Positions 24,192-60,730 of a DNA stretch of 64,000 bases are shown here, one piece after another. Origin of the DNA: Bretschneidera sinensis. Taxonomy: Eukaryota; Streptophyta; Magnoliopsida; Brassicales; Akaniaceae. Made by a program: the position numbers and the translations under genes. The stretch's first letter is position 1. The number at the start of each line of letters is the position of its first letter. Where the stretch lies: assembly GCA_023935145.1 (NCBI GenBank), contig CM043698.1, positions 73,423,501 to 73,487,500 on the forward strand, given 5' to 3'. The notes below the pieces were generated by a model. It ran no database searches. It saw only the letters and a list, made by a program, of their open reading frames with translations, and was not told where the DNA came from.

Positions 24192-25185
24192 TGTTGGAAA
24201 TCACCTTGACAAGATGTCCAGATGGTGATCTTTCAAACACCCAAGTCTAGAATGACTTGTAGAAAGAAATACACCAATCGAACACAAGAATAGAAAATCA
24301 AAGAAAGAAAGAAGACAAGCAATTTGTTTTCGAGGTTCGACAATGTGCCTACGTCCCCGTGAGTCCTCCGAACTCTTTGCACTAAATCAAATGATTCTTA
24401 CAAGTTTCAGCAATCCCCTTCAAGAAACCTCAAGTTCTTGAAGAAACCAAGAAGAGAAGAAAGGAAGAAGATGAGAACTAACAATGCTCTCTATCTAATC
24501 TAGACTTCTCTCTCTTTTACAACCAGCCTCACTTCAAAGAGTCCCTCTTGTGTTTATGTCTCTCACACAATTCTCTCTATGTGTTTACAATTGATCTCAC
24601 AATGTCACAAATTTTTGTGTTTCTAATGTTTAAAAATGAGGCTAGGAAACCCCTTTTATAGATATCCATTTCTTGGTCATTCTTGAGATTCAATCCTCAC
24701 CCTTTGATCATGATCTCCATTTAATCATGGCCCTCCATCAATCCTAGGTGAAGTGGTGCGTTTTAACCTCGCACCCACGCACTTAACAAGAGGTTAAAAC
24801 AAGCTATCCATGTGTGCTTTAGTGTGCCTAGCACCTGGGCACTCAACAGAGGCACCGCGGTGCTAGGCAAAACCACACTTTCAGCACCTTCTGGGCGCTG
24901 CGGTGCTGGTGCGGTGCTGACTCTTCTCCAGACACCTCCTTGCTGGAACCTACGGTGCTGAAGGGTAGCACCACAGTGCACACTGATGCTGCCTGTGCAC
25001 ACACTTTCTCAGCTTGTGTGCAGAAGTGCACACACCAGTGCGCATGGCCTTCCCTTGCTCCAAATTGATGCACACACATGTTCAGTCTTCTAACTTGCTT
25101 AACTTTAATCCTCCAACCTTGGTTTAGATTTTAACCATCTTTGAACCATGGTTGGACCTGTGCAAACCTTAGACAAATACCAACA
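24192..25185 (-). repeat. Copia-2 3' LTR (sense orientation)
   Basis: This 994-bp LTR runs from TGTTGGAAATC to ATACCAACA. It has a GC-rich cluster at about 24840-24975 with CACCGCGGTGC and GCGCTGCGGTGC. Its ends are similar to the Copia-1 LTR (AAGTCTAGAATGACTTGTA is shared) but the middle differs. Confidence 0.92.
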
Positions 25186-25265
25186 ATCTCTACCTTTGTC
25201 TAAGTGTTTAAACCTGAACCATTGTGCAAAAAGCTTCAAGGCCCAAACTCATCTTGAGTCATCAA

Positions 25266-28200
25266 TTAACCAACTCCAATCCTAAGTAATCCAAGGCAAT
25301 GATTGAACTTACTTAGAGGTAGAACTTTAGTACCCAAATCCGCAGGATTTTCTTTCGTGGTCTTCTTGTCAACATGAATGCATCCTTTCGTACCATTTTC
25401 CAGAATGTAATGATACCGAACATCCATATGCTTCATCCCCGCATGGAACACCAGATTTTTACACAAGTGCAAGGCACTTTGACTATCCGAAAATACCACA
25501 ACCTGCTCTTTTAGGACCTCCCACTCGTCCAACAACCCTTTGCACCCCATAGCCTCCTTTATGGCTTCCATAGTCGCTATGCATTCTGCCCTGGTTATTA
25601 TGAGTGCTACCACCGGTTGCCACTGAACCTTCAAATACCTCAGCAACCTATTCATCCCAAGCCAATGCTTCTTTCCGGGATTACTCACAAATTTGCTGAG
25701 AACACTCATTGCCCAAGAAACCCTTAACCAGTTTCTCTCCTTTTCTTGGATTCTACACATCCCAAGGATCTTTTGTGTAAGGCTGAGATTGTTCCTCTCA
25801 AACTCCTCACTGAGTTGAGATGTAAACCTTTCCATCTTTTTCTTGCTGTTCCGAACCAACAGCACATCATCGACATAGATGAGGATACTCACCTTCTTCT
25901 CCACCTTATGTCCAAGTGAGAAAGTTTATATGAAACCTATGTCTTCTCTTCTTGTGAACCCATTTGCCACCATCCTTTCTTTGTTCCAGACTTCCTCTCC
26001 TGGAGGGTACCCTTCTTTGATCTTGTAAGTGCACTTACATTCTACAACTTTCTGCTTTCCTGGAATTTTCACCAATTCCCAGAAGTTGTTCTTCCTCAAA
26101 GAATCCATTTCTTTCTCCATAGCCAGCTACCACTTTGACGAATCCTTACACTCCATGGCATATGTGTAAGTTTCTGGTTCAACCTCTCCTCTATCCAAGG
26201 AGCTGCTACATCTGCAAACCCATATCTCAAAGGTTGTCTAACCACCCTCCTTCTCTGGTCTCTTGTGAGCTGGTAGTCATTCTGACTTGCTACATCAACC
26301 TCTTCTTGTTCAGCCTCTTTTTTGAGTTTCTTGAGCTTGGCCTTCATCCAAGGGCTCTACCTAGTCCGAACCCTCTTGCCTCCTTTGTTCTACTTGAACC
26401 GAGTTCCCCTTGATGCGATGCTCCACAATTCATTAAAATTAACATCCCTACTTACTATGAGTTTCAATCCTTCTCTCTCTAAGGACCACAACCTATACCC
26501 CTTAGCCCATTCTCTATGTCCTAGAAACACACACTTTCTAGATCCTGGGCTAAGTCTATCCTCCTTTTGATGTGCATCTGCAGCACATCCAAAAGTCCTA
26601 AGGTTGTTTAATTCAGGGGGTTTTCCACTCCACATCTCCATGGGAGTCTGGAGCTCTAAAGCTCTAGAGGGTGATCTATTTACTAAGTATGCAATTATAG
26701 CCACAGCTTCTCCCCAAAAATATTTTGGTAAACCGGATCCATTTAACATACACCTAACCTTTTCCATAAGGGTCTTATTCATTCACTCAACAACTCCACT
26801 TTGTTGAGGGGTTTCCACAACCGTCCTATGTCTTAGAATGCCATTTAACCTACAGAATTGTTCAAGTTCTTGGTTAAAAATTTATAAGCCACTATCGGTT
26901 CTTATCCCCTTAACTACTCTACCCATTTGAGTCTCAACCAGCTCTCTCCACACCATTAATTTATTCAAGGCATCCGATTTATTTCTAAGCAAATAAACCC
27001 ACACTCTTCTTGAATAATCATCAATTAAAGACAGAAAGTAAAATTTACCTCCCTGTATTGGTGTCCTTGCTGGTCCCCAAAGGTCCGCATGAATGTAGTC
27101 AAGAATGCCTTTAGACTTATGCACTCTGGTGTTGAAGCTTACCCGATGTTGCTTCTCAAGAACACAACACTCGCAAAAATCAAGTTCCTCTACTTTGACT
27201 CCACCAAGTAGGCCATCATTACTGAGAACTTGCAGGCCTTCTTCGCTCATATGTCCCAAGCGAGTGTGCCAAAAGGCTGCCCTATCCATCTCAGCCATCA
27301 AGCTTGCTGCTTGATCATTAATTTCTGTCTCTCCGATCATCTCATAGAGTCCATCGTTTCTTGCTGCCTTGATCACTACCAAAGATCCCTTAGCCACCTT
27401 GATCTTTCCTCTCTCTACTTTCCATGTGTACCCCATGGAATCCAGCTTCCCTAATAAGATCAAATTCCTCTTCATATCTAGAAGATATCTAACATTTCGC
27501 AGCAGCCTTGTGACTCCATCAAACATCTTCAATTGGATGTCTCCAATCCCTCTCACTTGGCAAGAATTGTCATTCCCCATGAAAACCCTTCCATTATTGA
27601 TCTCCTTGAAATTCTTGAACCATTCTTTGTGAGGGCACATGTGATAATTGCACCCGGAATCAAGAATCCACTTCCCGCTGCCTTGCCTCCTGCTTACATT
27701 TGAGCACACAACAAGAATATCATCTTGTTGTTCTCTCTTGGCAACCGAAGCCTCTCCATTGTTGGTATGGCTTCTCCTCTCATCCCACATCCTCTTCTTG
27801 CAATCTTTCTTGAAATGGCCCTCCTTGTTGCTGTAGAAGCATCTCCTTCCTCCTCCAAGTCTTGTCTTGGAATGAGATCTCCCATGGTTCTGCCCTCTAC
27901 CTCTTGATTTCTCTCGGTAGTTGCCATGGTTGCTACTGCCATTCCGAGTTGCTGGCCTTCCTCTTACGAACAACCCATCTCCACTTGATATCTCCTTCAT
28001 CTTGGCCTTAAAATCATGTGCCCTTATGGCATTGATCATAATCTCCTTTGTCAAAGTATCCCTTCCATACTCAATAGCATTAATTAAATTATCAAAGCAA
28101 TCAGGAAGAGAATTTAACTAGATAACAGCCAATTTTTCATCCGAAAAAATAATGCTACAGCTATTCAAATCTTGAACTAGCTTATTAAAGACATCAAGAT

Positions 28201-28558
28201 TATCTTGCAACTCTTTACTAGGGTCCATTTTAAAAGAAAAGATTCTTTTAAGAAGATAAATCTTGTTAGGAAGAGTTTTGGTAAGAAACAACTCATCTAG
28301 TTTCTTCCATATGACAGCCGGATCTTCCGAGTCTCCGCACTCCCTTGTGACACTATCCGACATGTGCAAGAAAATGGTGTTGTAAGCCACCTTCTTCATC
28401 TCGGTCCGCTGGTCCTCCGTGACACTTGCTAGAAAAGCATCATCTTCTCTAATAGCCAAGTCCACTTTCTGTTGCATTAGAACCGCCTTAATCTTCCGCT
28501 TCCAAAGGGCAAAGTCTCCCTTTCCATCAAACTTCTCAACACAGAAATTTGAAGCCAT
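25266..28558 (-). pseudogene. Copia-2 gag-pol polyprotein, degenerate
   Basis: Gag starts at 28558 (VEKFDGKGDFALWKRK, WKKLDELFLTKTLP). One in-frame TAG at about 28116 interrupts it, and the frame then continues in one long stretch to 26882. Visible there are the zinc knuckle CFYSNKEGHFKKDC (second Cys replaced by Ser), protease WILDSGCNYH, the GAG-pre-integrase region and the integrase core HADLWGPARTP...LSLIDDYSRRVWVY. After breaks follow the IN distal part (26390-26782), the RT start, YVDD at about 25868-25880, and RNase H (25266-25650). The RT gap (FSLGHKVEKK joined to LIYVDD, near 25905) and the RNase H gap (RYLKVQ joined to QPVVAL) sit at the same places as in Copia-1. A further private deletion removes RT sequence after NWLRVSW. 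Confidence 0.92.
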
Positions 28559-28804
28559 CTTTGCAGACAAGATCCCAGATTTATGCACTACCCACAAATG
28601 CTTTCTTCAACCTCAAGAACACCGACGGAAGATGGATCTTAACACCGTTCTTGAATCAACCTCAAGAACACGATCAGATCTTGATCTTTACACCATTCTT
28701 GAATCACCCAACAAGTTGATCTTTGATTCTTGGAGTCTTGGCTCTATCACCTTCTTGTTCATGCTCCGATACCCAGCTGTGCAGCTCTGATACCATTGTC
28801 CAAA

Positions 28805-28816
28805 GCTCTGATACCA
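28805..28816 (-). promoter_or_regulatory. Copia-2 primer-binding site
   Basis: TGGTATCAGAGC on the minus strand, two bases inside the LTR, complementary to initiator Met tRNA. It is identical in position to that of Copia-1. Confidence 0.88.
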
Positions 28817-29122
28817 CTGTTGGAAATCACCTTGACAAGATGCCCAGATGGTGATCTTCCAAACACCCAAGTCTAGAATGACTTGTAAAAAGAAATACAG
28901 AAATCGAACACAAGAACAGAAAATCAAAGAAAGAAAGAAAACAAGCAATTTGTTATCGAGGTTCGGCAATGTGCCTGCATCCCCGTGAGTTCCTTCGAAC
29001 TCTCTGCACTAAATCAAATGGTTCTTACAAGTTACAACAATCCTCTTCAAGAAACCTCAAGTTCTTGAAGAAACCAAGAAGAGAAGAAAGGAAGAAGATG
29101 AGAACTAACAATGCTCTCTATC

Positions 29123-29610
29123 TGAAGCCGGGTAGAATAACGATTATTCTATAGGCTAGTCGAACAGATAATTCACAGGGAGTAACATAAGGAAAAACCC
29201 TAAACAATACAGAGAAACAGCTTTGATGTTTTATTTAAAATTATGCAAATACAATAATAATGATTACGAAACCCTAAGACCTTATTTATAAGGTCGAAGC
29301 TAAAATAGGAAAATTAAATTAAGACCGAATTTAAAGTAATAAAAATAAAAAGTTTCTTAAAATGTAAATTAAAAAATAAAAATTTTGTTTTTTGGCTTAA
29401 AAATGATGGTGCTTAGGGCTAAAACTAAGTTTTGCCCGGAAGCCTGTTTCCAATCAGACTAGGGTCTTTCGGGGCCCGATCTGAGCCCGTGGCCCATTTT
29501 AGGTAGTCTACCTGCCAGTTTTGCGCTGATCTGCCAACTCTAGGTACCTCGGGGCCAACAACATGCTATCTGATAACTCAGCATCATCTAACTCGGATCC
29601 TCCTCCATCA
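29123..29610 (-). repeat. Gypsy array LTR 1
   Basis: 488 bp. It starts TGAAGCCGGG and ends TCCTCCATCA. It lacks about 40 bp present in LTRs 2-4 near 29380. A TATA-like TATAAATAAGG on the minus strand lies at 29280-29292. The reading frame of the unit ends inside the LTR (stop at 29508-29510). Confidence 0.85.
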
Positions 29611-32024
29611 GTCGCCCCAGGTTGGAAAGAACTCGTCCTCGAGTTCACAATAGCCTCATCGGAATCCCCAAAACAAGGACTCAGGTGTTTCACATTAAAG
29701 ACATCAGAAGTTCTCAAATGACTGGGTAGGCGTAGTCTGTAGGCGTTATCATTGATCTTCTGCAGGATCTCAAAGGGTCCAATCTTTTGCTCCTTAAGCT
29801 TATTATACTCTCCCATAGGAAAACGATCGCGAGTTAATACTGCCCAAACAAAATCACCAACAACAAAAAGTATCTGACGACGATAACTGTCGCTTTGAGC
29901 CTTGTACTTGGCATTACTCTCGTGAATGGCCAGCTTCATCTGCTCATGGATAGAGTCCTTTGTCAAGGTTTCTCTGTACATTATGCTTCCAGTCAAAGGG
30001 AGTCAGCCCTTTTTTAACTCCTTTCTTCAAGAGCATGGTGGAGATGCGGAGTGTACGGGCACATTCAAGTGGTATGTCCCTTCTATGGAAATCCAAAAGA
30101 GTGATATCGTCTTCAGCATCAAGTGATTTTATGTAGTCAATGATTTACTCAACTGAGAATGCTATAGGACCCATATCCTCACAACCACCATCATTCTCCA
30201 TAAACATCTGTAATGACCCAATCTTGAATTTTATTTCCCCAGGATGGTTGAATCCCTGATACAAGCACTTAATCATAACTATGGGGGGTACCCCAAAAAA
30301 GCCCTTCTCATAACCAAATAACGAGCGGCCCCCGCTCTTTGGATGATCCAATATGTAAGCAACAACTTCCCTAAGTGCTCTTTCTCCAACTCTCGTTCCC
30401 TTCTTTAACCCTTCACCATTTGGTGACAATGGCAACCTTTGAGGGTCGTTCACTGCCAATGGTCCCTCATTAATTGGCTTAAAAATAGTAACAAATTTCT
30501 AGCCTGATGAATCTAGCATTAAATAAACTCCTCTTGTACCCTCCCTGGACTTGACTGGGTAATTCCCACTATCTAATCCATCAAAAGTGGAATTAAGCAT
30601 ATCCAAAATCACTGATGGTAATTCAATCTTAGGACTAATGATGATTGGCTCCAAAGAGAAATGCTTGTCAGGAGGCTTCCTTGGTACAATTTCTCGATTA
30701 ACATCATAAACTCTCCTATTGTTTTCTTCACGGGCATCATAGTATCTCCTATTGTTCTCCATAGGAGCATCGTAATTTTTTCTATCGTTCAACTTTGGGG
30801 ACACCATGGACAATTCAAAATTCTTCTCAACTGGCTTAGTCTGAACTTTTGTAGATTTTTGGACCAACAAATGCAACACTGCATTATTGTGCTTACTGAT
30901 GTCATCAATAAGCCTCTGATCCTCCAATCGCTCCCCATCATAAACAACTTCCTGCTCATCAAGATCAACAAATTCTTTCGTCCTCTTTGCAATCTTCTGT
31001 TTCACATACCCAACATCTCCATCTTCATCATTGTCATACATAGGCTCTCCAATCTCCTCAGTTTCGTCTACCCCGTCATCCTCAATCAGGAGATTTTTTT
31101 CATTATGACTAGCAGGCTTCATGCACTCAGTCGATTTATGTCCCTGTTCACCGCATCTAAAACATCTAATATTTGAGCTAGGGTTACCTTGGGGTGGCTG
31201 CTGGGCAGGATGGAATTCTTGAGGGCGAACTAGCCGATTGCACTGATTGCTGTTGCGATTCATTGGCCTTCTGTTCTGCTGTTTTTCCACCGCAAGTGCA
31301 CGCTGGTATGCTTCAGAAACGATCCACAGCAAGTGAAGGCTGAGGACATCCTGTACTGGCTGCCGTAACCCCCCAAATACTATGCCACCATCTTCTCTTC
31401 TGTCTCGGATAAATCATTCCTGGCTATCAATTGATAGAACTCCTCCGTGTAATCATCCATCGATCTTGTGCCCTGCATCAACTAATGAAGTTGTTGAAAC
31501 AAGGTTTGAGTGTAGCCGAAAGGAAGGAAGTGACCCTTCATCTTCTCCCAATCTGTGATCTTGGCCTTGCCCTGCCAGTCGCGTGAGCATATCAACTGCT
31601 CCCACCACGTAGATGCTTTGCCTTTGAGTTTGATGACGACCAGTTTTACTTTGACACGATCTGGGACTTCCTTATACTCGAAAATATGCTCTACTTCATT
31701 GAACCAATCGACGAATCCTTCGGCCTGTAACATACTAGAAAACTCGGGCAGATCCACTCTGAATCTAAGGTCTTCATAACGATCCTCTCGACCATGGTGC
31801 TCCCTAAATCGACCAGGACTGTGATACGGATTTTCGAAACTGCAATCTGAATCGTGATATTTCGTCTCACGATCACCGAAATTTCGTGCCCCTAGATGTT
31901 GGGTTAACTTTGCGACTTACCTCTATAAATCCTCAATCATCGCATCCTGAACGTTATGATCACGGTGTGGGGCTTCCTCGTTCGGAACCTGCCCGCGACG
32001 ACCATGACCACGACCACCAGCCAT
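29508..32024 (-). pseudogene. Array unit 1: Gag / UBL / PI4K-gamma / integrase C-terminus chimera
   Basis: The sense start is at 32024 (MAGGRGHGRRGQVPNEEAPH-like). Gag follows with DWFNEVEHIFEYKEVPDRVK and KASTWWEQL, then a zinc knuckle CFRCGEQGHKSTEC and an acidic stretch. Next is a ubiquitin-like domain (VGYVKQKIAKR, FVDLDEQEVVYDGE) and the kinase N-lobe (REGTRGVYLMLDSSG, FKPI, GEGLKKGTRVGE), then YIKSLDAEDDI-like and RTLRISTML motifs. The integrase C-terminal domain ends the frame (GDFVWAVLTRDRFP, KIGPFEILQKINDNAYRL). The frame is interrupted by frameshifts (two bases are missing near 29990) and stops, but it has the fewest lesions in the first half. The 5' leader contains the solo LTR at 32054-33798. 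Confidence 0.88.
29945..31013 (-). other. Captured host fragment in unit 1: UBL + PI4-kinase gamma
   Basis: Homologous to plant phosphatidylinositol 4-kinase gamma proteins, which have ubiquitin-like domains followed by a PI3/4-kinase domain. Seen: end of a ubiquitin-like domain, linker (PVEKNFELSMVSPKL), N-lobe with FKPIDE (the ATP-binding Lys region), EVVAYILDHPKSG, FNHPG, KIGSLQMFMENDGG, CEDMGP. The chain then jumps from FxVEE directly to DYIKSLDAE. The skipped part is where the family has its catalytic (DRHxGN) and activation (DHG) motifs, so no kinase activity is possible. No intron interrupts the copy. Confidence 0.9.
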
Positions 32025-32053
32025 GGAACTGATGAAATCTTGCCATAGAAAAA

Positions 32054-33798
32054 TGATAACTCTGTGATAAGAGCCATAAAATGCATTATAATTGTACTTA
32101 TTTGTTAGGACTTTAGGGTTGATTTAGGTCTTAATTGCATTTTTATTCATTAACAACTCTAAAGTGGTATTTTTGGAGCATTAACTTATTTCGGTGCATT
32201 TTTCAGGTATCTTGATTTAAAAGAGATGGAAGAGCTATCATCATTTTAAACACGAAGCTCCATTGAACACTCAAGCAAAAGAATGGTCGTGGAAGAGCCA
32301 AGATGAAGAGAAACTAAGAAAGGAGTTATCACTAAGTTGCTGGAGTTGCCATACGAATCAACCATCTTTACAAATTAAACTATATTGATGTAGGAAGAAC
32401 CAGGAAGTGTGCCATGTATGCTTAGAAATATCTGGAAGTCTACTTTCTGGAGGATTTTATGGTACATTAAAATCATTTTTCTAGAGAAAGTTATGGCGAT
32501 TTTAGCGGACAGAGGTCATACCTCCTAGTTCAGCATCAGCCGCACCTCACAGCACCAAAATGCACAGAGAGGACAGAAACTCAAGGCTGCAGCGCCAGGA
32601 TGTTGGCGCTGCAGTTCTGGTAGCTGACACAAAGAAGGATTTGGACAGAAAGTTGACGCTGCAACGCCAAAAAGTTGGAGCTGCAGCGCCAGAATTAGGG
32701 TTTCTTTATGCCTTGGCGCTGCAGCACTGGGATGTTGGCGCTGCAGCGCCAGCCTGTGAATTTTGAATGTTATAAATTGAAACCCTAGCTGAACAAGAAG
32801 GGGATCTGGAAAAGAGGCAGAAAAGAGAAGAAAGAAAACAAAATTTGGAGGAGGGGAGACACGAAAGGAGGCTTGGAGACACTCCAGGAGGCTACGCATC
32901 AAGCTTTTAATCATTCTTCTCCGGTTTTGTATTCTTTTATTCTATCTATGTTGATGTTTTATAATATGAACATGGGTTGTTTGAACATGATTATGGAGTA
33001 GATATTTTTGTGTTAAGGATAGATGGCTCCTAAACCTTTATCTTGAGTTGTTGTTTGGACAAGTGGAATTTAATGTGTTTTTCAAAGAGTGTGTTTTATT
33101 GTTCTTAATGCTTTTTATTATTTTGATTCCTTCTTGGGGCATGGTGATGTGTCGAATAGAGAAGCCATGTTTTTATGAATGATTGAACTAATAAATATGA
33201 TATTGGATTGTTATCTATGCAAAGGTCAGGGTAAAACATGCCATGAATGAAATAGGAGTAACCGAATAGGGATCCTAGGAAGTTCATGTGGTCCGCTTAA
33301 ATCGTAACCGAATAGGGAGATTTAACTAAAAGGAATCCAAAAGCACTTAATGCTTCTTAATCTGAATTAATCTAGAATAGACCTGGAATACGGATATTCG
33401 AAGTTAATGATTCTTAATATTGTGGTTAGACCTGGAATATGGATAACCAATTTATTGGGGATTCTACCATCTTGAAAAACATATTAAACAAAACTTGTCC
33501 ATTCGAAGCTCTTGTCAATTATGGTTTAGGTGAAGTCGAGTCCTTAGCACGTTAGTTCATAAGAGTCTTCATTCCAAAGATTGCAAATTTTCCGTTATTT
33601 ACTATTGCGTTCTGTTTTTCCCTTTTAGTTAATTGTTAGTAACTTTTTCTCCGACAATTATTCGTTTGCTCAAATAACATTAAGAGTCGAATCATAATTT
33701 CTGTAGTATTTGCTCAGTCCTCGTTGGGAACGATATTTACTCATCATTTTATTACTTGAACGATTAGTGCACTTGCTAGTGTCAATTTCATCGCATCA
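32054..33798. mobile_element. Solo LTR inserted in the leader of array unit 1
   Basis: 1745 bp absent from units 2 and 3, flanked by a 5-bp AAAAA duplication (32049-32053, 33799-33803). Ends are TGATAACTCTG and CATCGCATCA, the TG...CA form of an LTR. No coding region and no second LTR are seen, so it is best read as a solo LTR left by LTR-LTR recombination; the final block (GTGCACTTGCTAGTGTCAA) resembles plant Gypsy LTR ends. It contains several GGCGCTGCAGCGCC-type palindromes at about 32587-32755 and repeats of GACCTGGAATA near 33380-33440. Confidence 0.75.
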
Positions 33799-33824
33799 AA
33801 AAACGCTTAAGCTCTGATACCAAC

Positions 33825-34352
33825 TGACGCCGGGCAGAATAGCGATTATTTTTCAGGCTAGTCGAACAGATAGTTCACAGGGAGTAACACAAAGAAAAAC
33901 CCTAAACAATACAGAGAAACAACTATGATGTTTTAATTAAAATTATGCAAATACAATAATAATGATTACGAAACCCTAAGACCTTATTTATAAGGTCGAA
34001 GCTAAAATAGGAAAATTAAATTAAGGTCGAATTTAAAGTAATAAAAATAAAAAGTTTCTTAAATTGCAAATAAAAAATAAAAAGTTTCCTAAAAACTGAA
34101 ATCCGCCAAATTGAAGGCCTAAACGTTGGTTTTTTAGCTTAAAAATGACGATGCTTAGGGCTAAAACTAAGTTTTTCCCGGAAGCCCGTTTCCAATCAGA
34201 CTAGGGTCTTCCGGGGCCTGATCTGAGCCCGTGACCCATTTTAGGTAGTCCACCTGCCAGTTTTGCGCTGATCTGCTAACTCTAGGTACCTCAGGGCCAA
34301 AAACGTGCTATCTGACAACTCAGCATCATCTAACTCGGATCTTCCTGCCTCA
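33825..34352 (-). repeat. Gypsy array LTR 2
   Basis: 528 bp, TGACGCCGGG to CCTGCCTCA. It is followed on its left side by the primer site (GCTCTGATACCA, 33811-33822) belonging to unit 1. It contains the minus-strand TATAAATAAGG box. Confidence 0.87.
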
Positions 34353-36780
34353 ATCGCCCTGGGTTGGAAAGAACTCGTCCTCGAGTTCACAATAGTCTCA
34401 TCGGAATCCCCAAAACAAGGACTCAAGTGTTTAACATTAAAGACATCAGAAGTTCTCAAATGACTGGGTAGGCGTAGTCTGTAGGCTTTATCATTGATCT
34501 TCTGTAGGATCTCACAGGGTCCAATCTTCCACTCCTTAAGATTATTATACTCTCCCACAGGAAAACAATCGTGAGTTAATACTGCCCAAACAAAATCACC
34601 AACATCGAAAAGTACCTGACGACGATGACTGTCGCTCTGAGCCTTGTACTTGGCATTACTCTCATGAATGGCCAACTTCACCTGCTCATGGATAGAGTCC
34701 TTTGTCAAGGTTTCTCTGTACATTATGCTTCCAATGTCAAAGGGAGTCAGCCTCTTTTCAACTCTTTTCTCCAAGAGCATGGTGGAGATGCGGAGTGTAC
34801 AGGCACATTCAAGTGGTATGTCCCATCCATGGAATTCCATAAAAGCGATATCTTCTTCAGCATCAAGTGATTTTATGTAGTCAATGATTTCCTCAACTAG
34901 GAATGCTATAGGACCCATATCCTCACAATCACCATCATTCTTCATAAACATCTGTAATGACCCAATCTTGAATTATATTTTCCCAGGATGGTTGAATCCC
35001 TGATGCAAGCACTTAATCATAACTGTGGGGGGTACCCCAGAAAAGCCCTTCTCATAACCAAATAACGAATGACGCCCGCTCTTCGGATGATCCAATATGT
35101 AAGCAGCAACTTCCCTAAGGGCTTCTTCTCCAACTGTCGTTCCCTTCTTTAATCATTCACCATTTGGTGACAATGGAAACCTTTGAGGGTCATTCACTGC
35201 CAATGGTCCCTCATCAATTGGCTTAAAAACAGTAACAAATTTTTGGCCTGATGAATCCGGCATGAAATAAACTCCTCCTGTACCCTCCCTGGACCTGACT
35301 GGGTAATTCCCACTATCTAATCCATTAAAAGTGGAATTAAGCATATCCCAAATCACTGATGGTAATTCAATCTTGGGACTAATGATGATTAGCTCCAAAG
35401 AGAAATGCCTATCAGGAGGCTTCCTTGGTACAATTTCTCGATTAACTTCATAAACTCTCTTATTGTTTTCTTCATGGGCATCATAGTATCTCCTATTGTT
35501 CTCCCCAAGAGCATCGTAAATTTTTCTATCGTTCAACTTTGGAGACACAATGGATAATTCAAAATTCTTCTCAACTGGCCTAGCCCGAACTTTTGTAGAT
35601 TTTTGGACCAACAAATGCAACACTGCATTATTGTGCTTACTGATGTCATCAATAAGCCTCTGATCCTCCAATCACTCCTCATCATAAACAGCTTCCTACT
35701 CATCAAGATCAACAAATTCTTTCGTCCTCTTTACAATCTTCTGTTTCACATACCCAACATCTCCATCTTCATCATCCTCATGCACAGGCTCTCCAATCTC
35801 CTCAGTTTCATCTACCCCATCGTCCTCAATCAGGAGATTTTTGCCCTTATAACTAGCAGGCTTCATGCACTCAGTCGATTTATGTCCCTGTTCACCACAT
35901 CTGAAACATCTAATATTTGAGCTAGGGTTACCTTGAGGTGGCTACTGGGCAGGACGGAATTCTTGAGGGCGAACTAGCCGACTGTTCTGATTGCTGCTGC
36001 GGTTCATTGGCCTTCTGTTCTGCTGTTTTTCCACCGCAAGTGGACGCTGGTATACTTCAGAAACGGTCCACAGCGAGTGAAGGCTGAGGACATCCTGTAG
36101 GGGCTGTCGTAACCCCCCCCCCCCCAAATACTTTGCCACCATCTTCTCCTCTATCTCGGATAAATCTTTTCGGGCTATCAATTGATAGAACTCCTCCGTG
36201 TAAGCATCCATCGATCTCGTGCCATGCCTCAACAAATGAAGTCGCTGAAACAAAGTTTGAGTGAAGCCGAAAGGAAGGAAGTGACCCTTCATCTTCTTCT
36301 TCATCTTCTCCTAATCTGTGATCTTGGCCTTGCCCTGTCGGTCGCGTGAGCATCTTAACTGCTCCCACCACGCAGATGCTCTGCCTTTGAGTTTGATGGC
36401 GACCGGTTTTACTTTGACATGATCTGGGACTTCCTTATACCTGAAAATAAACTCTACTTAATTCAACCAATCGACGAATCCTTCGGCCTGTAACGTACTA
36501 GAAAACTCGGGCAGATGCACTCTGAATCCGAGGTCTCCATAACGATCCTCCCGACCATGTTGCTCCCTGAATCGACCAGGAAAGTGGTAAGAGTTCTCGA
36601 AACTGGAATCGAAATCGTGATCTTCCATCTCACGATCACTGAAATTCCGCGCCCCTAGACACTGGTTAACTCTACGACTTACCTCTGTAAATCCTCAATC
36701 ATCGCATCCAGAACGTTACGATCACAATGTGGGGCTTTCTCGTTCGGAACCTGCCCGCGACGACCACGGCTACCAACCAT
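34241..36780 (-). pseudogene. Array unit 2: Gag / UBL / PI4K-gamma / integrase C-terminus chimera
   Basis: Same order as unit 1. The end part is the longest open stretch of the three (34241-34951), running without a stop from the kinase segment through RTLRISTML and ETLTKDSIHEQ into the integrase C-terminus (HESNAKYKAQSDSHRRQVLF...). This shows that the captured kinase fragment and IN are fused in frame. Stops occur before LEDQRLIDD (35672-35674) and in the Gln/Pro linker after Gag; both are shared with unit 3 and absent from unit 1. A run of 12 or so C bases near 36113-36124 adds a frameshift. Confidence 0.88.
34682..35755 (-). other. Captured host fragment in unit 2: UBL + PI4-kinase gamma
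   Basis: Same extent and same internal deletion as in unit 1 (VEEIIDYIKSLDAEEDIAF). It keeps GGVYFMPDSSGQKFVTVFKP and LECACTLRISTMLLEKRVEK. The 3' junction passes in frame from KDSIHEQ into the integrase sequence VKLAIHESNAKYK. An in-frame stop precedes LEDQRLIDD. Confidence 0.9.
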
Positions 36781-36830
36781 GGAACTGATGAAATCTTGCC
36801 CTAGGAAAATGCTGAAGCTCTCAGACCAAC

Positions 36831-37357
36831 TGACACCAGACAGAATAGCGATTATTCTGTAGGCTAGTCTAATAGATAGTTCACAGGGAGTAATACAAGG
36901 AAAAACCCTAAACAATACAGAGAAACAGCTCTGATGTTTTATTTAAAATTATGCAAATACAATAATAATGATTACAAAACCATAAGACCTTATTTATAAG
37001 GTCAAAACTAAAATAAAAAAATTAAATCAAGGCCGAATTTAAAGTAATAAAATTAAAAAGTTTCCTAAATTGCAAATAAAAAATAAAAAGTTTCCTAGAA
37101 ACTGAAATATGCCAAATTGAGGGCCTAAACGTTGTTTTTTGGCTTAAAAATGACGATACTTAGGGCTAAAACTAAGTTTTACCTAAAAGCCCATTTTCAA
37201 TCAGACTAGGGTCTTCCGGGGCCCGATCTGAGCCCGTGACCTATTTTAGGTAGTCCACCTGCCAGTTTTACGCTGATCTGCTAACTCTAGGTACCTCAAG
37301 GCCAACAACGTGCTATCTGACAACTCAACATCATTTAACTCGGATCCTCCTGCATCA
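36831..37357 (-). repeat. Gypsy array LTR 3
   Basis: 527 bp, TGACACCAGA to CTGCATCA. The adjacent primer site of unit 2 is degraded (GCTCTCAGACCA at about 36817-36828). Confidence 0.87.
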
Positions 37358-39768
37358 GTCACCCCGGGTTGGAAAGAACTCGTCCTCGAGTTCACAATAG
37401 CCTCATCGGAATCCCCAAAACAAAGACTCAGGTGTTTCACATTAAAGACATCAGAAGTTCTCAAATGACTGGGTAGGCGTAGTCTGTAGGTGTTATCATT
37501 GATCTTTTGTAGGATCTCACAGGGTCCAATCTTTCGCTCCTTAAGCTTATTATACTCTCCCACGGGAAAACGATTGCTAGTTAATACTGCCCAAACAAAA
37601 TCACCAACATCCAAAAGTACCTGACGATGATGACTGTCGCTCTAAGCCTTGTACTTGGCATTACTCTCGTGAATGGCCAGCTTCACCTGCTCATGGATAG
37701 AGTCCTTTGTCAAGGTTTCTCTATACATTATGCTTCCAATGTCAAAGGGAGTCAACCCCTTTTCAACTCATTTCTTCAATAGCATGGTAGAGATGCGGAG
37801 TGTACGGACATACTCAAGTGGTATGTCCCATCCATGAAATTCCATAAGAGTGATATCTTCTTCAGCATCAAGTGATTTTATGTAGTCAATGATTTCCTCA
37901 ACTAGGAATGCTATAGGACCTATATCCTCCCAACCACCATCATTCTCCATAAACATCTGTAATGACCCAATCTTGAATTTTATTTCCCCAAGATGGTTGA
38001 ATCTTTGATGCAAGCACTTAATCATAACTGTGGGCATACCCTAGAAAAGCCCTTCTCATAACCAAATAACGAGCAGCGCCAGCTCTTCGGATGATCCAAT
38101 ATGTAAGCAGCAACTTCCTTAAGTGCTCCTTCTCCAACTCTCGTTCCCTTCTTTAATCCTTCACTATTTGGTGACAATGGCAACCTCTGAGGGTCGTTCA
38201 CTACCAATGGTCCCTCATCAATTGGCTTAAAAATAGTAACAAATTTCTGGCCTGATGAATCCAGCATGAAATAAACTCCTCCTGTACCCTCCCTGGACCC
38301 TGAATGGGTAATTCCCACTATCTAATCCATCAAAAGTGGAATTAAGAATATCCAAAATCACTGATGGTAATTCAATCTTGGGACTAATGATGATTAGCTC
38401 CAAAGAGAAATGCCTATCAGGAGGCTCCCTTGGTACAATTTCTCTGTTAACTTCATAAACTCTCCTATCATTTTCTTCACGGGCATCATAGTATCTTCTA
38501 TTGTTCTCCCCAGGAGCATTATAATTTTTTCTATCGTTCAACTTTGGGGACACAATGGACAATTCAAAATTCTTCTCAACTGGCCTAGCCCGAACTTTTA
38601 TAGATTTTTGGAACAACAAATGCAACACTGCATTATTGTGCTTACTGATGTCATCAATAAGCCTCTGATCCTCCAATCACTCCTCATCATAAACAACTTC
38701 CTGCTCATCAAGATCAACAAATTTGTTTTCCTTCTTTGCAATCTTCTGTTTCACATACCCAACATCTCTATCTTCATCATCGTCATACACAGGCTCTCCA
38801 ATCTCCTCAGTTTCGTCTACCCTGTCGTCCTTAATCAGGAGATTTTTGCCCTTATGACTAGCAGGCTTCATGCACTCAGTCGATTTATATCCCTTTTCAC
38901 CGCATCTGAAACATCTAATATTTGAGTTAGGGTTACCTTGGGGTGGCTACTATGCAGGACAAAATTTTTGAGGGCGAACTGGCCGACTGCTCTGATCGCT
39001 GATGCGGTTCATTAGCCTTCTATTCTGCTGTTTTTCCACCGCAAGTGCCCGCTGGTATGCTTCAGAAACGGTCCACAGCGAGTGAAGGCTGAGGACATCC
39101 TGTAGGGGCTGCCATAACCCCCTAAAATATTGTGCCACCATCTTCTCTTCTGTCTCGGATAAATCATTTCGAGCTATCAATTGATAGAACTCCTCCGTGT
39201 AATCATCTATCAATCTCCTGCCCTGCTTCAACGAATGAAGTCGCTGAAACAAGGTTTGAGTGTAGCCGAAAGGAAGGAAGTGACCCTTCATCTTCTTCCA
39301 ATCTGTGATCTTGGCCTTGCACTGTCGATCGCGTGAGCGTCTCAACTGCTCCCACCACGCAGATGCTTTGCCTTTGAGTTTGATGGTGACCAGTTTTACT
39401 TTGACACGATATAGGACTTCCTTATACTTGAAAATATACTTTACTTCATTCAACCAATCGATGAATTCTTCGGCCAGTAAGGTACCAAAAAACTCATGCA
39501 GATCCACTCGGAATCTGAAGTCTCCATAACAATCCTCCTAACCATGGTGCTCCCTGAATCGACCAGGATTGTGATACAGGTTTTCGAAACTGGAATCGGA
39601 ATCGTGATCTTCTGTCTCACGATCACCGAAATTCCGTGCCCCTAGACGCTGGGTTAACTCTACGACTTGCCTTTGTAAATCCTCAATCATCGCATCCTGA
39701 ACGTTACGATCATGGTGTGGGGCTTCCTCGTTCGGAACCTGCCCGCGACGACCACGACCACCAACCAT
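37246..39768 (-). pseudogene. Array unit 3: Gag / UBL / PI4K-gamma / integrase C-terminus chimera
   Basis: Gag starts at 39768 (MVGGRGRRGQVPNEEAPHH). A stop follows at about 39540, then Gag is open to 38950 (DWLNEVKYIFKYKEV, SAWWEQL, LHSLWTVSEAYQRALAVEKQQ). The zinc-knuckle His is replaced by Tyr (RCGEKGYKSTEC). The ubiquitin-like and kinase segments (38677 down to about 37690) and the integrase C-terminus (37246-37614) follow. It shares the pre-LEDQR stop (38677-38679) and other private changes with unit 2. Confidence 0.88.
37690..38763 (-). other. Captured host fragment in unit 3: UBL + PI4-kinase gamma
   Basis: Same extent and deletion as in units 1 and 2 (AFLVEEIIDYIKSLDAEED). Motifs are GGVYFMLDSSGQKFVTIFKP, GLKKGTRVGEGALKEVAAYI and RTLRISTMLLKK. 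Small frameshifts lie near 38300 and 38040. Confidence 0.9.
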
Positions 39769-39818
39769 GGAACTGATGAAATCTTGCCCTAGGAAAATGC
39801 TTAAGCTCTGATACCAAC

Positions 39819-40345
39819 TGACGCCGGGTAGAATAGCGATTATTCTGCAAGCTAATCGAACAAATAGTTCACAGGGAGTAAAACAAGGTAAAACGTTAAA
39901 CAATACAGAGAAACAGCTTTGATTTTTTATTTAAAATTATGCAAATACAATAATAATGATTACGAAACCCTAAGACCTTATTTATAAGGTCGAAACTAAA
40001 ATAGGAAAATTAAATTAAGGCAAAATTTAAAGTAATAAAAATAAAAAGTTTCCTAAATTGCAAATAAAAAATAAAAAGTTTCATAAAAGCTTAAATCTGC
40101 CAAATTGAGGGCCTAAACGTTGTTTTTTGGCTTAAAAATGACGATGCTTAGGGCTAAAACTAAGTTTTGTCCGAAAGCCCGTTTCTAATCAGACTAGGGT
40201 CTTTCGAGGCCCGATCTAAGCCCATGGCCCGTTTTAGGTAGTCCACCTACCAGTTTTGCGCTGATCTGCCAACTCTAGGTACCTCAGGGCCAATAACGTG
40301 CTATCTGACAACTCAGCATCATCTAATTCGGATCCTCTTGCATGA
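39819..40345 (-). repeat. Gypsy array LTR 4 (sense 5' LTR)
   Basis: 527 bp, TGACGCCGGG to TTGCATGA, ending at the CTATC target copy. The terminal CATCA of the family reads CATGA here. The primer site of unit 3 (GCTCTGATACCA, 39805-39816) adjoins it. Confidence 0.87.
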
Positions 40346-41025
40346 CTATCTAATCTAGACTTCTCTCTCTTTTACAACCAACCTCACTTCAAAGAGTCCC
40401 TCTTGTGTTTATGTCTCTCACACAATTCTCTCTATGTGTTTACAATTGATCTCACAATGTCACAAACTTGTGTGTTTCTAATGTTTAAAAATAAGGCTAG
40501 GAAACCCTTTTTACAGCCATCCACTTCTTGGTAATTCTTGAGATTCAATCCTCACCCTTTGATCATGATCTCCATTTAATCATGGCCCTCCATCAATCCT
40601 AGGTGAAGTGGTGCATTTTAACCTTGCACCCACGCACTTAACAAGAGGCTAAATCAAGCTGTCCATGTGTGCTTCAGTGTGCCTAGTACCTAGGCACTCA
40701 ATAGGGGCACCGCACTGCTAGCCAAAACCACACTTTCAGCACCTTCTGGGCACTGCAGTGTTAGTGTAGTGCTGACTCTTCTCCAAACACCTCCTTGCTG
40801 GACACCTCGGTGCACACTGATGCTGCCAGTGCGCACACTTTCTCAGCTTGTGTGCAGAAGTGCACAGACTAGTGCGCATGACCTTCCTTTGCTCCAAATT
40901 AATGCACACACATGTGTGCAGTCTTCTAACTTGCTGAAATTTAATTATCCAACTTGGTTTAGATTTTAACCATCTTTGAACCACAGTTGGACCTGTGCAA
41001 ACCTTAGACAAATACCAACAATCAA

Positions 41026-41954: not shown

Positions 41955-44650
41955 TAGACCAACCCTAGATCCAAATCATCATACATCCACTAAACAAACC
42001 TTAGCCCAAATCAGTGAAAAAAGAAATCTAAAAAAAAAATTGCTTTTGGTGTCGTGAGCAGTGTTCTACAATTTTTTAATATTTATTTTGCTTTATGTTG
42101 TTTATGAGAAAAAACGAAAAAAAAGAAAAATCAGAACAAAAAAATAGATTTTAAAAAATTTTATATCCACTTTATGAGTGATGGATTCAGTTGAGCTAAC
42201 CTGAATCCTTTGCGTGATCATTCGTGATGTATTATATCTAATCACATAGGATGTGTTGCATAAGGTTTTTGATCCATATGGGTTGGTTAAGAAAATTATT
42301 ATCTCTGTTGATCAAATGTTTGTTGACCCTGAATCACTAATGATATTATTTAAGTGATAGAGATTGTTAATAATGCTTATACATTAAAGAAGATCAAGAC
42401 TGTAGAATATGGTCAATCAAATTTGAAGATCTCAAAAGTCAAGAAGCTCTCCAAAAGATCATATTCAAGGATAATAATTGAAATGCAACTTCAAAGACAA
42501 AAGAGCTAAATTATAGGTTTGAATCTGAAGATACAATTTGTAAGCATTTCAATTTTTAGGAGCTAATCAAATTTGCATTGCACTTTATTACATAGCCTTA
42601 ATTAATTGAAGATATTTAATCTCTACATGATTTTATTAAATGAAAATATTAAATTCTTTGGATTCAATACATAACATGTTCTATTTGAACTCAAGAAGAA
42701 TTTATGTTGACATAGAAAATTATTTGAACATTTGTAATATATCATTTTTCATATATATTGCACACACATTATGCTTAAATTTTTTATATGTTTTGTCATC
42801 ATAAAAAAGGTCTCAATCAAGAAATTTTTTAAAATAATTTTGATGATAACAAAACACTCCTGAAGTGTTTAACTTGTGTGTTAAATGTGCAAGAAAGTTT
42901 GATTCAATTGGAAGATTTTTAGGAACTCAAAAATAAAAAAAAGTATGAAGAAAATTGATGCTGAAAACATTGTTTATCATGAAAACACTGTAGCAACATC
43001 ATAAATAATACACAGTAGGCTGTGCAAAATAGACAGTCAACTATGGGTTCGAAAACTCAATTTTTGCATCAGTTATGAAGGACATTCGAATACCATAAGT
43101 GGACAGTCGACTGGGCAAGTTACAACAACTATATTTTTTAATTTAAAAGGCTATAAACTTTACTCTAAAGGCTCTATTTTGTCTCCAACGGCTAGAAGAC
43201 TTCAAGACACTATAAATAGTGCCTTAAAGGTCATTTGAAAGACAAGAGAAACATTATACAACAAAGAATTAAAGAAAAATCTTCATTCTCTTATTCTTGA
43301 GCTAAAATCTCCATTGTTTAGCTAGAACAGTCGACTTGGCAAGTTACAACAGCTATATTTTTTAATTTAAAAGGCTATAAACTTGACTCTAAAGACTATA
43401 TTTTGTATCCAACGGCTAGAAGACTTCAAGACACTATAAATAGTGTCTCAAAGGTCATTTGAAAGACAAGAGAAATATTATACAACAAAGGATTAAAAAA
43501 AATCTTCATTCTCTTATTCTTGAGCCAAAAACTCCATTGTTAAGCTATAAGCTTTTGAGAGAGAAAATTTTGAGTTTTAATTTTTATTGAGAAATCTCTC
43601 CTATTTATTTGTTTCAAACTGTCCTTTAATCATCCTGTTATAAGAGTTAGTGTAACTTTTGTGAGCTAGTAAGTGTTGGGTATATACACTTTGGTAGAAA
43701 ACTTAGGACTCTTGTGAAAAAAGTTGAAGCAACACCCTTGAAGTTGCTTGTTTGTATTTGGTTTGAGCAACACCCATGGAAGTTGCGTGTCTTAATGAAA
43801 GGCTTCAAGGAGGATCCTTGAAGAGAGTGGATGTAGGGTCAGAAGGATTCCAATATTTCTAAACCACTATAAATCGAGTTTGCATCTCTCTAACTCCATC
43901 TCCTTAAATACTTGCACAATTACTTGCCTAGAATAAACTCTCTCATCTTTGTGCTAGTAATTTAGAAAGATTAATTTGATTTAATTCTGCATATGTTTTT
44001 ATTTTTGAGATTACAAAAATAGATTTGAAAAATTCTTAATTCCAAGTTTGCCCCCTCTTGGGTATTGCGATAGTATATTTTGGACCAACAATCTCTCAAA
44101 CTGATATTGATTTTCATGCTCTTGCAATTTAGTAGGCACTAAGAAGTTTTCTTGGGTTAAATTTTTTTTTTGAATGGTTGTTGTATTTACAATTATTATT
44201 GTTAGATAGAGATCATGTTTTACTCTCCAAGGGAACCATCTATGTCCATAGATGAGTTACTCGAGCTTCAACAAGTACTTGATAGAGTTTTTAAGAGAAT
44301 ATTAAGCATCACTGCCAATTTTTCTTGCAACAATGGTTTTGTTCCAGACCCATCCAAGTAGGATAAGTTTAATGATGCTCAACTCTAACATAAGAACCAA
44401 GAAGATGAAGCATGCAAGATGATTGACTCTGAGACACCCCAAGACTAGCCAGAAGTTTTTCTTGAGCAAGTTGAGATCACGGATTGCAAGCACGACTAGG
44501 ACAAGATTAAAGACATTATTGAGGCAGTCTTTGATATGCATCCTCCTACTGTTGATTTTGTCTTGCCTATTTGGTCTAAAGAACCTCCACAACAGGCATT
44601 CTCAACCAAAAAAATTTCCTCTAGTAAAGAGCTCGTTCTTTAAGAAGATG
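41955..44650 (+). other. Interior of the third LTR element, mostly unidentified
   Basis: AT-rich with no recognisable gag or pol. The stretch about 42841-44090 has LTR-like character (GATGATAACAAAAC near its start, TTTTGGACCAACA at its end) and contains the repeat also seen at 1-60. A degenerate frame at about 44219-44640 is open in pieces (SIDELLELQQVLDRVFKRIL) but I recognise no family. Confidence 0.4.
43104..43552. repeat. Tandem duplication of about 224 bp
   Basis: Two adjacent units start CAGTCGACTGGGCAAGTTAC (43104) and CAGTCGACTTGGCAAGTTAC (43328). Both include CCAACGGCTAGAAGACTTCA and GACACTATAAATAGTG. The repeat contains a TATA-like ACTATAAATAGTG in each unit. The spacing is 224 bp. 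Confidence 0.85.
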
Positions 44651-50000: not shown

Positions 50001-50545
50001 TGATGCAGGACAGGTGGACAGAGCAGAACAAATGGCTCTGGACTACCTAGAACAGTTGGATCGTTCCAAATCTAAGGGTGCTGTTTACATTGTTTTGCGT
50101 GCCACGGGCTCGGATCGGGCCCCGGAGACCCTAGTCTGATTGAAAATGGGCCCCCGAGCAAAACTCAATAACTTACCTTGAGCGAAGTTGTTTTTTAGCC
50201 AAAAAACGACGTTCAGGCCTTCAATTTTGTAGTTTTCAGTTTTTAAGAAACTTTCCATTTTCAATTTCTTTTGTATTCAAGTCATAATTGACTACCGTTA
50301 ATTCTGTCTTAATCAGAACGCTTAATTTTATTATTTTCCATTGTTTTCCCCAAGTTTATGTTTTCAGAGATTTTTGCTTTTTTTAACTTTGACCTTATAA
50401 ATAAGGAGGCTACGTACAGAAAAGGGAGATTATTATTATTGAATAAAAATTATGGCTTATTTTCTCTTCGTGAGAGTTTATCGTATTGAAGGTTGAAGAC
50501 ACAGTTCTTCTTCCTAGTTCTTTCTTCCGCTTGTGTTTTATGTCA
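50001..50545 (+). repeat. Gypsy 5' LTR
   Basis: 545 bp, TGATGCAGGA to TATGTCA. The TATA box TATAAATA at 50396-50403 (CCTTATAAATAAGG) matches that of the array LTRs. It ends two bases before the primer site. Confidence 0.82.
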
Positions 50546-50547
50546 GT

Positions 50548-50560
50548 TGGTATCAGAGCC
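50548..50560 (+). promoter_or_regulatory. Gypsy primer-binding site
   Basis: TGGTATCAGAGCC, complementary to the 3' end of initiator Met tRNA. Confidence 0.9.
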
Positions 50561-50578
50561 TTGTTCTACCCTGGTCTG

Positions 50579-53500: not shown

Positions 53501-54212
53501 ATGACCAGTAGAGTTTTTCAGCGAGAAGTTCAACGATACTCGCCAAAAGTGGACAACGTATGAGCTGGAATTTTATGCAGTCATTCGAGCTTTGAAACAT
53601 TGGGAGCATTACCTGATCCAGCGTGAGTTTGCTCTCTACAGTGATCACAAAGCTCTGAAATTTATCAATATGCAAACCACCCTAAACAGAATGCATGCCC
53701 GGTGGACTAACTTCTTCCAGAAGTTCACTTTTGTGCTCAAACACGAGTCTGGGCAATTGAATAAAGTGGCAGAATCGTTAAGCCGACGCGCATCCTTACT
53801 CTTGACTCTCCGATCAAAAGTCGTGGGGTTTGATTGTTTGAAAGAGTTGTATGAGGAAGATGATGACTTTCGGGAAATTTGGGAGAAGTGTCAACGGAAA
53901 GAGGCAATCCTAGATTTTCATGTCCATGACGGGTTTCTGTTTCGCGGTAATCAATTGTGTATCCCTCGCACGTCTTTACGCGAGCAGATTCTCCGCGATA
54001 TACACAGCAACGGTTTAGGGGGTCATGCAGGGCATGACAAAACAATCGCCCAGGTAGCTAAACGTTATTACTGGCCACAGCTGAAACATGATGTGGGCAA
54101 ATTCGTACAGAGATGCCCTGTTTGCCAAACTGAAAAGGGCCAAGCACAGAATACCGGTTTGTACACCCCTCTGCCCATGGCGGAAAACATTTGGGAGGAT
54201 GTGACAATGGAC
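50579..54212 (+). pseudogene. Gypsy gag-pol polyprotein with premature stops
   Basis: Gag starts at 50579 (DWLFEVEAFIEY, SAWWEQTQ). It has a zinc knuckle CYRCSQPGHCSNEC (51671-51712), protease [12 protein letters not shown] (about 51958-51993), RT with CVDSRAINKITVKYHFPIP, YHQIR and the active site YFDDILIYS (53012-53038), and RNase H with FEVECDASG and YSDHKALKF. The integrase zinc domain lies at about 54004-54130 ([14 protein letters not shown]...CPVCQ). The coding region stops at VTMD, before the catalytic core. In-frame stops lie at 51068, 51233, 51395, 51950, 52082, 52322, 52772, 52871, 53324 and 53512. One extra G near 53410 shifts the frame. Confidence 0.9.
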
Positions 54213-54257
54213 CCCCGGTCAAAACTCAGGACTCTTCCCCGGCCATCCCCATACAAC

Positions 54258-55208: not shown

Positions 55209-55259
55209 GGAAACTGATGAAATCTCACCCCAGGAAGATGCTGAAGCTCTGATACCAAC

Positions 55260-55635
55260 TAACGTTGGGCAGAATAACGATTATTTTGCAGGCTAGTTTC
55301 AACAGATAGTTTGTAGGGAAAAAAACACAATTTTATTCAATAATAATAATCAGCTGTCTTTTCCATATGTGGCCTCCTTATTTATAAGGTCAAAACAAAA
55401 AAAAAAACAAAAAAAAGAGGAAAAAAATCCTCGAAAACATAATCTTGGGGAAAAAATATGGAAATTACTAAATTTAGACGAAGGTCTTCGGGGCTCGATC
55501 TAAGCCCGTGGCACGCAAAACGATGTAACCGTTCTAGGTAGTCCACCTGCCATCTTTGCACTGATCTGCCAACTCAATGTATCTCAGTGCCAATAACATG
55601 CTATCTGACAACTCAGCATCATCTGACTCGCATCA
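55260..55635 (-). repeat. LTR of the inverted Gypsy fragment
   Basis: 376 bp, TAACGTTGGGC to ACTCGCATCA. It is shorter than the array LTRs and has G-to-A changes at its tip. The primer site GCTCTGATACCA is at 55246-55257. Confidence 0.78.

Positions 55636-57693: not shown

Positions 57694-60730
<3,037 letters not shown>

Follow-up and report, generated by a model that had tools for sequence, protein, structure and literature searches.

In the genome of Bretschneidera sinensis (1.21 Gb in 550 contigs), a family of long terminal repeat (LTR) retrotransposons carries, where pol would be expected, a fragment of a host gene for a gamma-type phosphatidylinositol 4-kinase (PI4K-gamma). Three of its units form an array on the minus strand at positions 29123-40345 of the window, by which is meant the whole 64,000-nucleotide stretch analysed (C2:73423501-73487500). 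The element is a non-autonomous Ty3/Gypsy LTR retrotransposon, and its copies very probably represent a family of one origin that resembles Bs1 of maize, was mobilized in trans and bore the kinase fragment as a passenger. Bs1, which kept gag, lost pol and exists in few copies, is the nearest known case.

The array contains four LTRs and three internal units, laid out as LTR1-unit 1-LTR2-unit 2-LTR3-unit 3-LTR4, with neighbouring units sharing LTRs. Within each unit, a leader and Gag are followed by a zinc knuckle, approximately 1.07 kb of PI4K-gamma and an integrase C-terminal remnant that runs up to the next LTR. The features are listed below; UBL stands for ubiquitin-like domain and L014 for the nearest host gene found.

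24192-41023, minus strand: copia element, the array's target; its 5' LTR is 28818-29122 plus 40346-41023 and its other LTR is 24192-25188
29118-29122, no strand: target site duplication CTATC, left, from the sequence and the interrupted copia LTR
29123-29606, minus strand: LTR1, the array's 3' LTR in element orientation, from LTR matches
29606-29942, minus strand: unit 1 integrase C-terminal remnant (SH3_Tf2-1, PF24626), from Pfam and alignment
29943-31014, minus strand: unit 1 captured PI4K-gamma, part of the second UBL plus a kinase domain without catalytic core, from Pfam and alignment
31015-32048, minus strand: unit 1 leader, Gag and zinc knuckle, from Pfam and alignment
32056-33799, no strand: unit 1 foreign insertion of about 1.7 kb, between Gag and LTR2
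33824-34348, minus strand: LTR2, common to units 1 and 2
34346-34684, minus strand: unit 2 integrase C-terminal remnant, from Pfam and alignment
34685-35758, minus strand: unit 2 captured PI4K-gamma segment, from its match to L014
35759-36805, minus strand: unit 2 leader, Gag and zinc knuckle
36838-37357 (approximate edges), minus strand: LTR3, common to units 2 and 3
37351-37689, minus strand: unit 3 integrase C-terminal remnant
37690-38763, minus strand: unit 3 captured PI4K-gamma segment, from Pfam and alignment
38764-39793, minus strand: unit 3 leader, Gag (PF03732 in the 38950-39537 frame) and zinc knuckle
39820-40345, minus strand: LTR4, the array's 5' LTR
40346-40350, no strand: target site duplication CTATC, right, from the sequence
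54258-55311, minus strand: gag fragment, same family, lacking the capture (gag plus LTR fragment to 55634); its sequence parts from that of the capture-bearing copies at the 5' capture junction

Directly outside the outer LTRs, CTATC (plus strand) flanks the array on both sides, and the flanks are consecutive parts of one copia LTR, as 24192-24496 resembles 28818-29123 and 24491-25188 resembles 40346-41023. There was therefore one insertion, which later became an LTR-sharing array, and the three units are one array rather than three independent insertions. The foreign DNA of unit 1, 456 bases of which are 81 % identical to a stretch in another locus (L035), interrupted that unit later. The paired LTRs mostly start with TG and end with CA, some ends being point-mutated, and LTR4 is followed, in element orientation, by TGGTATCAGAGC, which we take to be a primer binding site of the tRNA-iMet type.

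A Pfam scan of 10 open frames from the units, two of them without a match, returned PF00240 (ubiquitin), PF00454 (PI3_PI4_kinase), PF03732 (Retrotrans_gag), PF00098 (zf-CCHC) and PF24626 (SH3_Tf2-1). The Gypsy-type Gag, knuckle and integrase end are recognized by PF03732 (1.8e-14), PF19259 (1.3e-8), PF00098 (0.00026) and PF24626 (3e-20). Neither the Pfam search of the open frames nor the alignment found a protease, reverse transcriptase, RNase H or integrase core in the window units; besides Gag and the integrase remnant, the capture alone lies between the LTRs, together with later insertions in unit 1 and in one other copy (L040). No chromodomain was among the Pfam matches of the unit open frames; the element may resemble CRM-type (centromeric) Gypsy elements. 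The sharing of LTRs by tandem units within a single target site duplication, a trait of terminal-repeat retrotransposons in miniature (TRIMs) in tandem arrays (TA-TRIMs), is present in the window array. TRIMs are miniature elements without coding sequence; unlike them, the units here are 1.86-3.0 kb long and derive from gag and/or kinase sequence. Thus, Pfam and alignment upheld the domain order and the loss of the pol domains that a preliminary description had reported for all three units, and the limits which it gave for the captured segments lie within a few bases of those listed above. That description had also ascribed the segment to a host PI4K-gamma gene and had spoken of several copies; the segment does match such a gene, and the same two junctions recur across the genome, as detailed next.

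The capture of unit 2 aligns with L014, on C1, in two blocks with 821 of 886 and 195 of 208 columns identical, far beyond chance. The captures of the three units are 91-94 % identical to L014 and 90-93 % identical to its paralogue L013 on C6, also in two blocks. In a tree of 15 copies, L013, L014 and two more paralogues, all copies form one clade (100/99) with L014 as sister (97/91) and L013 outside, although 11 of the 16 inner branches, mostly among the copies, were unresolved and the bootstrap had not settled. Where L013 and L014 differ (63 sites), the commonest letter of 13 loci equals that of L014 at 47 sites and that of L013 at 16. On sequence grounds, these results show the donor to be the intact host gene L014 and the capture to have been a single event, which would postdate the L013/L014 duplication. 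A first blast of the units against eight other host genes (L001-L008), which are more distant gamma genes with 33-40 % protein identity, was empty, and a PDB search with the kinase part of the donor gave no PI4-kinase match.

The closeness of capture and donor bears on whether the fragment acts through its RNA. Exact matches in at least one of 14 copies exist for 464 of 850 and 129 of 184 donor 21-mers, and many 24-mers are likewise shared, so that small interfering RNAs (siRNAs) might reach the donor, or likeness to an essential gene might shield the element from silencing. In maize, captured fragments are reported as siRNA reservoirs and such camouflage has been proposed (PMC13317346). However, 21-mer sharing is expected from a recent capture alone, and the open frames of both L013 and L014 are long and undisturbed; an action through RNA is considered unlikely.

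The captured segment starts approximately 20 residues inside the second UBL domain, and matches of the element frames to PF00240 begin no earlier than position 16-17 of 72; i.e., the UBL domain is incomplete. Approximately 745 bp of the donor are absent from the kinase part, namely the end of exon 1, an intron and the start of exon 2, and with them PF00454 positions ~128-188. The lost end of exon 1 encodes ADRHAGN, the catalytic loop of L014, and IDHGYCLP, which contains the IDHG motif. With its catalytic core missing, the captured piece is predicted not to be a working kinase, and a working kinase or UBL domain was accordingly rejected. At the deletion, donor GAGGAAAT|ACAT is fused to GAG|ATCATTGAC, the ends sharing short matches only. 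Apart from point changes, the joined sequence is present in 11 of 14 copies; in the other three the motif is altered and the alignment spans the join. Splicing was rejected as the source of this deletion, since no placement of the join makes the missing stretch start with GT, even if one of them makes it end with AG. At the 5' junction of the capture, AGATGT is common to L014 and the capture-free gag fragment. Both these six bases and the short matches at the deletion would fit template switching by reverse transcriptase.

Across the whole genome, the PF00454 profile has 82 matches, of which 38 begin at profile positions 2-6 and end at 123-134; such repeat counts from the profile search are lower bounds. 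These short-pattern matches are located on C1-C9, C211 and C521, whereas the host gamma genes L009-L014 extend to position ~175-180 and lack the shortened pattern. The DNA was read for 14 of the 38, as well as for L030, L031 and window unit 3, and all carry the element's deletion. Fourteen copies, representing 11 other loci and the three window units, were compared and have the same two junctions and the same deletion. All 11 other loci (L029, L031 and L034-L042) have LTR sequence on both sides, and eight have, like the window array, a clear 5-bp target site duplication. The flanks of the dispersed copies differ; L039 and L041 share the duplication CAATG. L030 was mapped and used in the 13-locus substitution count and was omitted from the LTR and duplication counts because its LTRs are incomplete. 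L020-L028 are shorter stretches of the L034-L042 places and were excluded from counts. An extra LTR-like match, possibly a solo LTR, adjoins the L036 copy (L036:7957-8344).

Such uniformity matters for the possibility of several independent captures, or of a DNA rearrangement in place of capture during reverse transcription. An intron test is blind to this distinction, as the deletion covers the intron, and a rearrangement is less affected than repeated capture by what the copies share. Among the copies read there are no differing breakpoints, and their junctions, deletion and single clade led to the rejection of several captures; we give the two alternatives together little credence.

A second array lies on C7, where the units at 98418500-98424500 repeat every ~1.86 kb. 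Each consists of an LTR, a 34-bp leader, capture positions 95-1074 and the integrase remnant, with gag and the first 94 captured bases gone. The 6 kb read there hold two whole and two partial capture blocks, and 13 PF00454 matches extend over 98420503-98472026, with a gap from ~98435500 to 98458277. The C7 array is a gag-less tandem derivative of the capture element. On another contig (C3:132920541-132923037), two short-pattern kinase matches are separated by 2.1 kb; they may belong to a third tandem array whose units differ in length.

In each of the three window units the donor frame is broken within the capture; the segment has two stops and a 2-bp deletion in unit 1, four stops in unit 2, and two stops and two 1-bp indels in unit 3. 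For a test over 13 loci, departures from the donor state were classed by the number of loci that have them and compared with an expectation matched for mutation type and context. Singletons in the capture comprise 160 nonsynonymous (N), 57 synonymous (S) and seven stop changes versus 158.8, 56.0 and 9.2 expected (N/S 0.99 of expectation). Shared changes comprise 51, 16 and six versus 50.1, 18.8 and 4.0 (N/S 1.20), and changes in nearly all copies nine, three and none versus 8.2, 3.1 and 0.6. For the host paralogues L013 and L014, the counts are 32 N, 31 S and no stop versus 44.8, 15.2 and 3.0 (N/S 0.35). With N/S near the neutral expectation, the capture seems unconstrained, and it drifts neutrally; selection on it was rejected, although the power to see it in inherited changes was limited. 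Pairwise comparison of the copies gives a dN/dS of 0.73, a measure that ignores mutation bias.

A finer-context test, in which the reference was the commonest letter per column, covered 12 loci for gag and the integrase remnant and 11 for the capture. Apart from C>T/G>A, inherited changes number 13 N and 14 S in gag versus 19.8 and 6.1 expected, and 0 N and 8 S in the integrase remnant versus 5.4 and 2.6. For all shared changes, N/S relative to expectation is 0.71 in gag, 0.39 in the integrase remnant and 1.41 in the capture; for all singletons, the values are 1.01, 0.97 and 1.02, and the singleton transversion and T>C/A>G subsets give 0.72-0.95. These small counts support past purifying selection on Gag and the integrase remnant, with variants inherited from functioning elements, and the copies are now decaying.

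The same data speak to a Gag-UBL-pseudokinase fusion having been selected because it helped the element, e.g. through binding to phosphoinositide membranes or to proteins of the ubiquitin pathway. Neither the two junctions nor the deletion shifts the reading frame, and some copies have open frames, up to 530 codons long, that span both junctions; to this extent the in-frame fusion of the preliminary description stands, whereas no window unit retains it through the capture. Neither domain is complete, the N/S values for the capture follow neutrality, shared stops (six versus 4.0) are not depleted, and the C7 form has multiplied, at least in tandem, without gag and the first 94 captured bases. 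A selected fusion is very improbable, and the effect of its own that had been suggested for such a protein finds no backing in two incomplete domains and seemingly neutral substitutions. It is barely credible that an autonomous lineage normally has this segment as a domain, or that the units are an assembly artefact: arrays are places where assemblies can err, but there is a gag relative that lacks the capture, the domain is complete in host genes, and dispersed copies have target site duplications and, the duplication common to L039 and L041 aside, differing surroundings.

Between the LTRs of the 11 loci, divergence (K) is 0.057-0.149 with a median of 0.082, and 10 of the 11 values are at most 0.098. 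At a rate of 1.3e-8 per site per year, borrowed from PMC5664825, these correspond to 2.2-5.7 million years, or 2.2-3.8 at 10 of 11 loci. The outlying value, that of L038, is a questionable age estimate, as its LTRs are unpaired in the tree and it has no target site duplication. Most copies read were thus inserted roughly 2-4 million years ago at the borrowed rate. The 5' LTRs have a mean identity of 87.2 % between loci, and LTRs within loci are 86.7-94.6 % identical. A-T exchanges per site in the LTRs are 0.0080 within loci and 0.026-0.027 between loci; those in gag, the integrase remnant and the capture are 0.0138, 0.0062 and 0.0045, respectively. As LTR exchanges between loci exceed those within, LTR diversity predates the insertions, and that of the capture does not visibly do so. 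Shared transversion variants occupy 2 of 1074 columns in the capture, 7 of 1027 in gag, 4 of 337 in the integrase remnant, and 13 of 492 and 12 of 490 in the LTRs. Additionally, the capture-free gag fragment nests among capture-bearing gags, beside L040 (95/89). Together, the LTR and transversion pattern and this placement suggest that the cassette passed from one element background to another.

Between gag and the integrase remnant, 17 of 28 pairs show four gametes, a result that parallel changes can also produce. Raw identity between loci is 88.9 % for gag and 93.9 % for the capture, a gap that was rejected as evidence of recombination. The window units, which form one group in each of the three trees (gag, capture and LTR), show the same gap (K 0.101-0.108 in gag versus 0.067-0.072 in the capture), so that most of it can be mutation rate; the remaining signs of exchange are the LTR excess, the inherited-variant test and the four-gamete test. 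Tentatively, what was amplified may have been a host cassette rather than one element lineage, with template switching carrying it among several pre-existing backgrounds (LTR, gag and integrase) that belonged to functioning elements. Bearing on this proposal, the capture is almost without variation from before insertion, and LTR, gag and integrase remnant carry inherited variation, which in the latter two leans towards silent changes, although it is not evident what the remnant would do for an element lacking the integrase core.

The passenger capture may then have arisen as follows. Reverse transcriptase would have switched, once, from element RNA to RNA of L014 and back, such that a host fragment took the place of all sequence from the end of Gag to the integrase C-terminus. 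At or soon after capture, a deletion across very short matches would have removed the catalytic loop and the donor's single intron. Because the element retained LTRs, primer site and Gag, its RNA would have remained fit for packaging and for copying with the reverse transcriptase and integrase of pol-bearing relatives. Copying by a related element's enzymes had been proposed from the outset and is supported in that it would follow from the absence of pol. During copying, template switching may have occurred between element lineages. At two loci, LTR-LTR recombination would have produced LTR-sharing tandem arrays, one after loss of gag, and the copies would then have decayed.

Several points weigh against this account. 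No autonomous partner was recovered, so that mobilization in trans is deduced from the absence of pol. The donor's intron in the captured part, the only one there, falls within the deleted stretch; because the deletion covers it, capture of spliced mRNA is indistinguishable from capture of unspliced RNA or DNA. The capture-free relative informs on the 5' junction of the capture, and the keeping of frame at both junctions and the deletion has a 1 in 27 chance if frame was irrelevant. No clear target site duplication is present at three of the 11 other loci (L034, L038 and L042). Inherited changes in the capture besides C>T/G>A number just 4 N and 0 S, and brief early selection is possible. Lastly, gag has 14 shared stop changes versus 12.8 expected, which blurs the case for selection on Gag; these are probably parallel deamination.

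The combination of features is unusual, and the kind of element is known. Bs1 is likewise a plant LTR retrotransposon with host gene exons and holds pieces of three genes (PMC13317346); here there is one gene, and the present family differs in its common internal deletion, dozens of copies, tandem arrays and gag-less derivative. In maize, 425 intact LTR elements with gene fragments, 168 of them Gypsy, represent at least 189 captures (PMC2774510), i.e. a mean of at most ~2.2 intact elements per capture, compared with 38 short-pattern matches, not all intact, from apparently one capture here. Transduced open reading frames occur in one or few copies according to a review (PMC7264820), and surveys of rice and sorghum found many LTR-captured genes (PMC3726574). 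The RLG_Cereba/RLG_Quinta system of einkorn wheat likewise includes a Gag-bearing element that lacks reverse transcriptase and integrase and has an extra non-pol region; its mobilization in trans, by a proposed helper, and recombination around Gag parallel the situation here, but in Quinta the extra region is DUF1, which has not been traced to a source, and the Gag frame is undamaged (PMC11302176), in contrast to the host gene fragment and decaying copies of the present family. Tandemly arrayed TRIMs likewise have LTR-sharing units with a target site duplication, and in that notation the window array would be L4I3 (PMC4717578). In pepper, NLR genes also multiplied inside mostly non-autonomous LTR elements, but under purifying selection (PMC5664825), whereas the fragment here is broken and neutral. 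A literature search gave no publication on this PI4K-gamma capture among the matches listed.

The family offers one capture, an identifiable donor and many copies that can be compared side by side in one genome, and the high copy number of the captured fragment apparently needed no function of that fragment. The system is suited to measuring the frequency with which parts pass between non-autonomous elements and their helpers, and the arrays and donor form a natural test of small-RNA effects on the donor gene, with the paralogue L013 as control.

Elsewhere in the window, the capture-free gag and LTR fragment (54258-55634, minus strand) abuts, head-on, a partial Gypsy element (50474-54353, plus strand) with zinc knuckle, reverse transcriptase, RNase H and integrase H2C2 domains. 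This element is not the immediate partner, because its gag has no DNA match to the array's gag; a stretch near 50101-50267 is ~76-79 % like the array's LTRs. Pieces of a squalene epoxidase gene (PF08491) lie at 58445-59732 on the minus strand, and 43103-43502 holds a pair of 176-bp direct repeats, 94 % identical and spaced by 224 bp.

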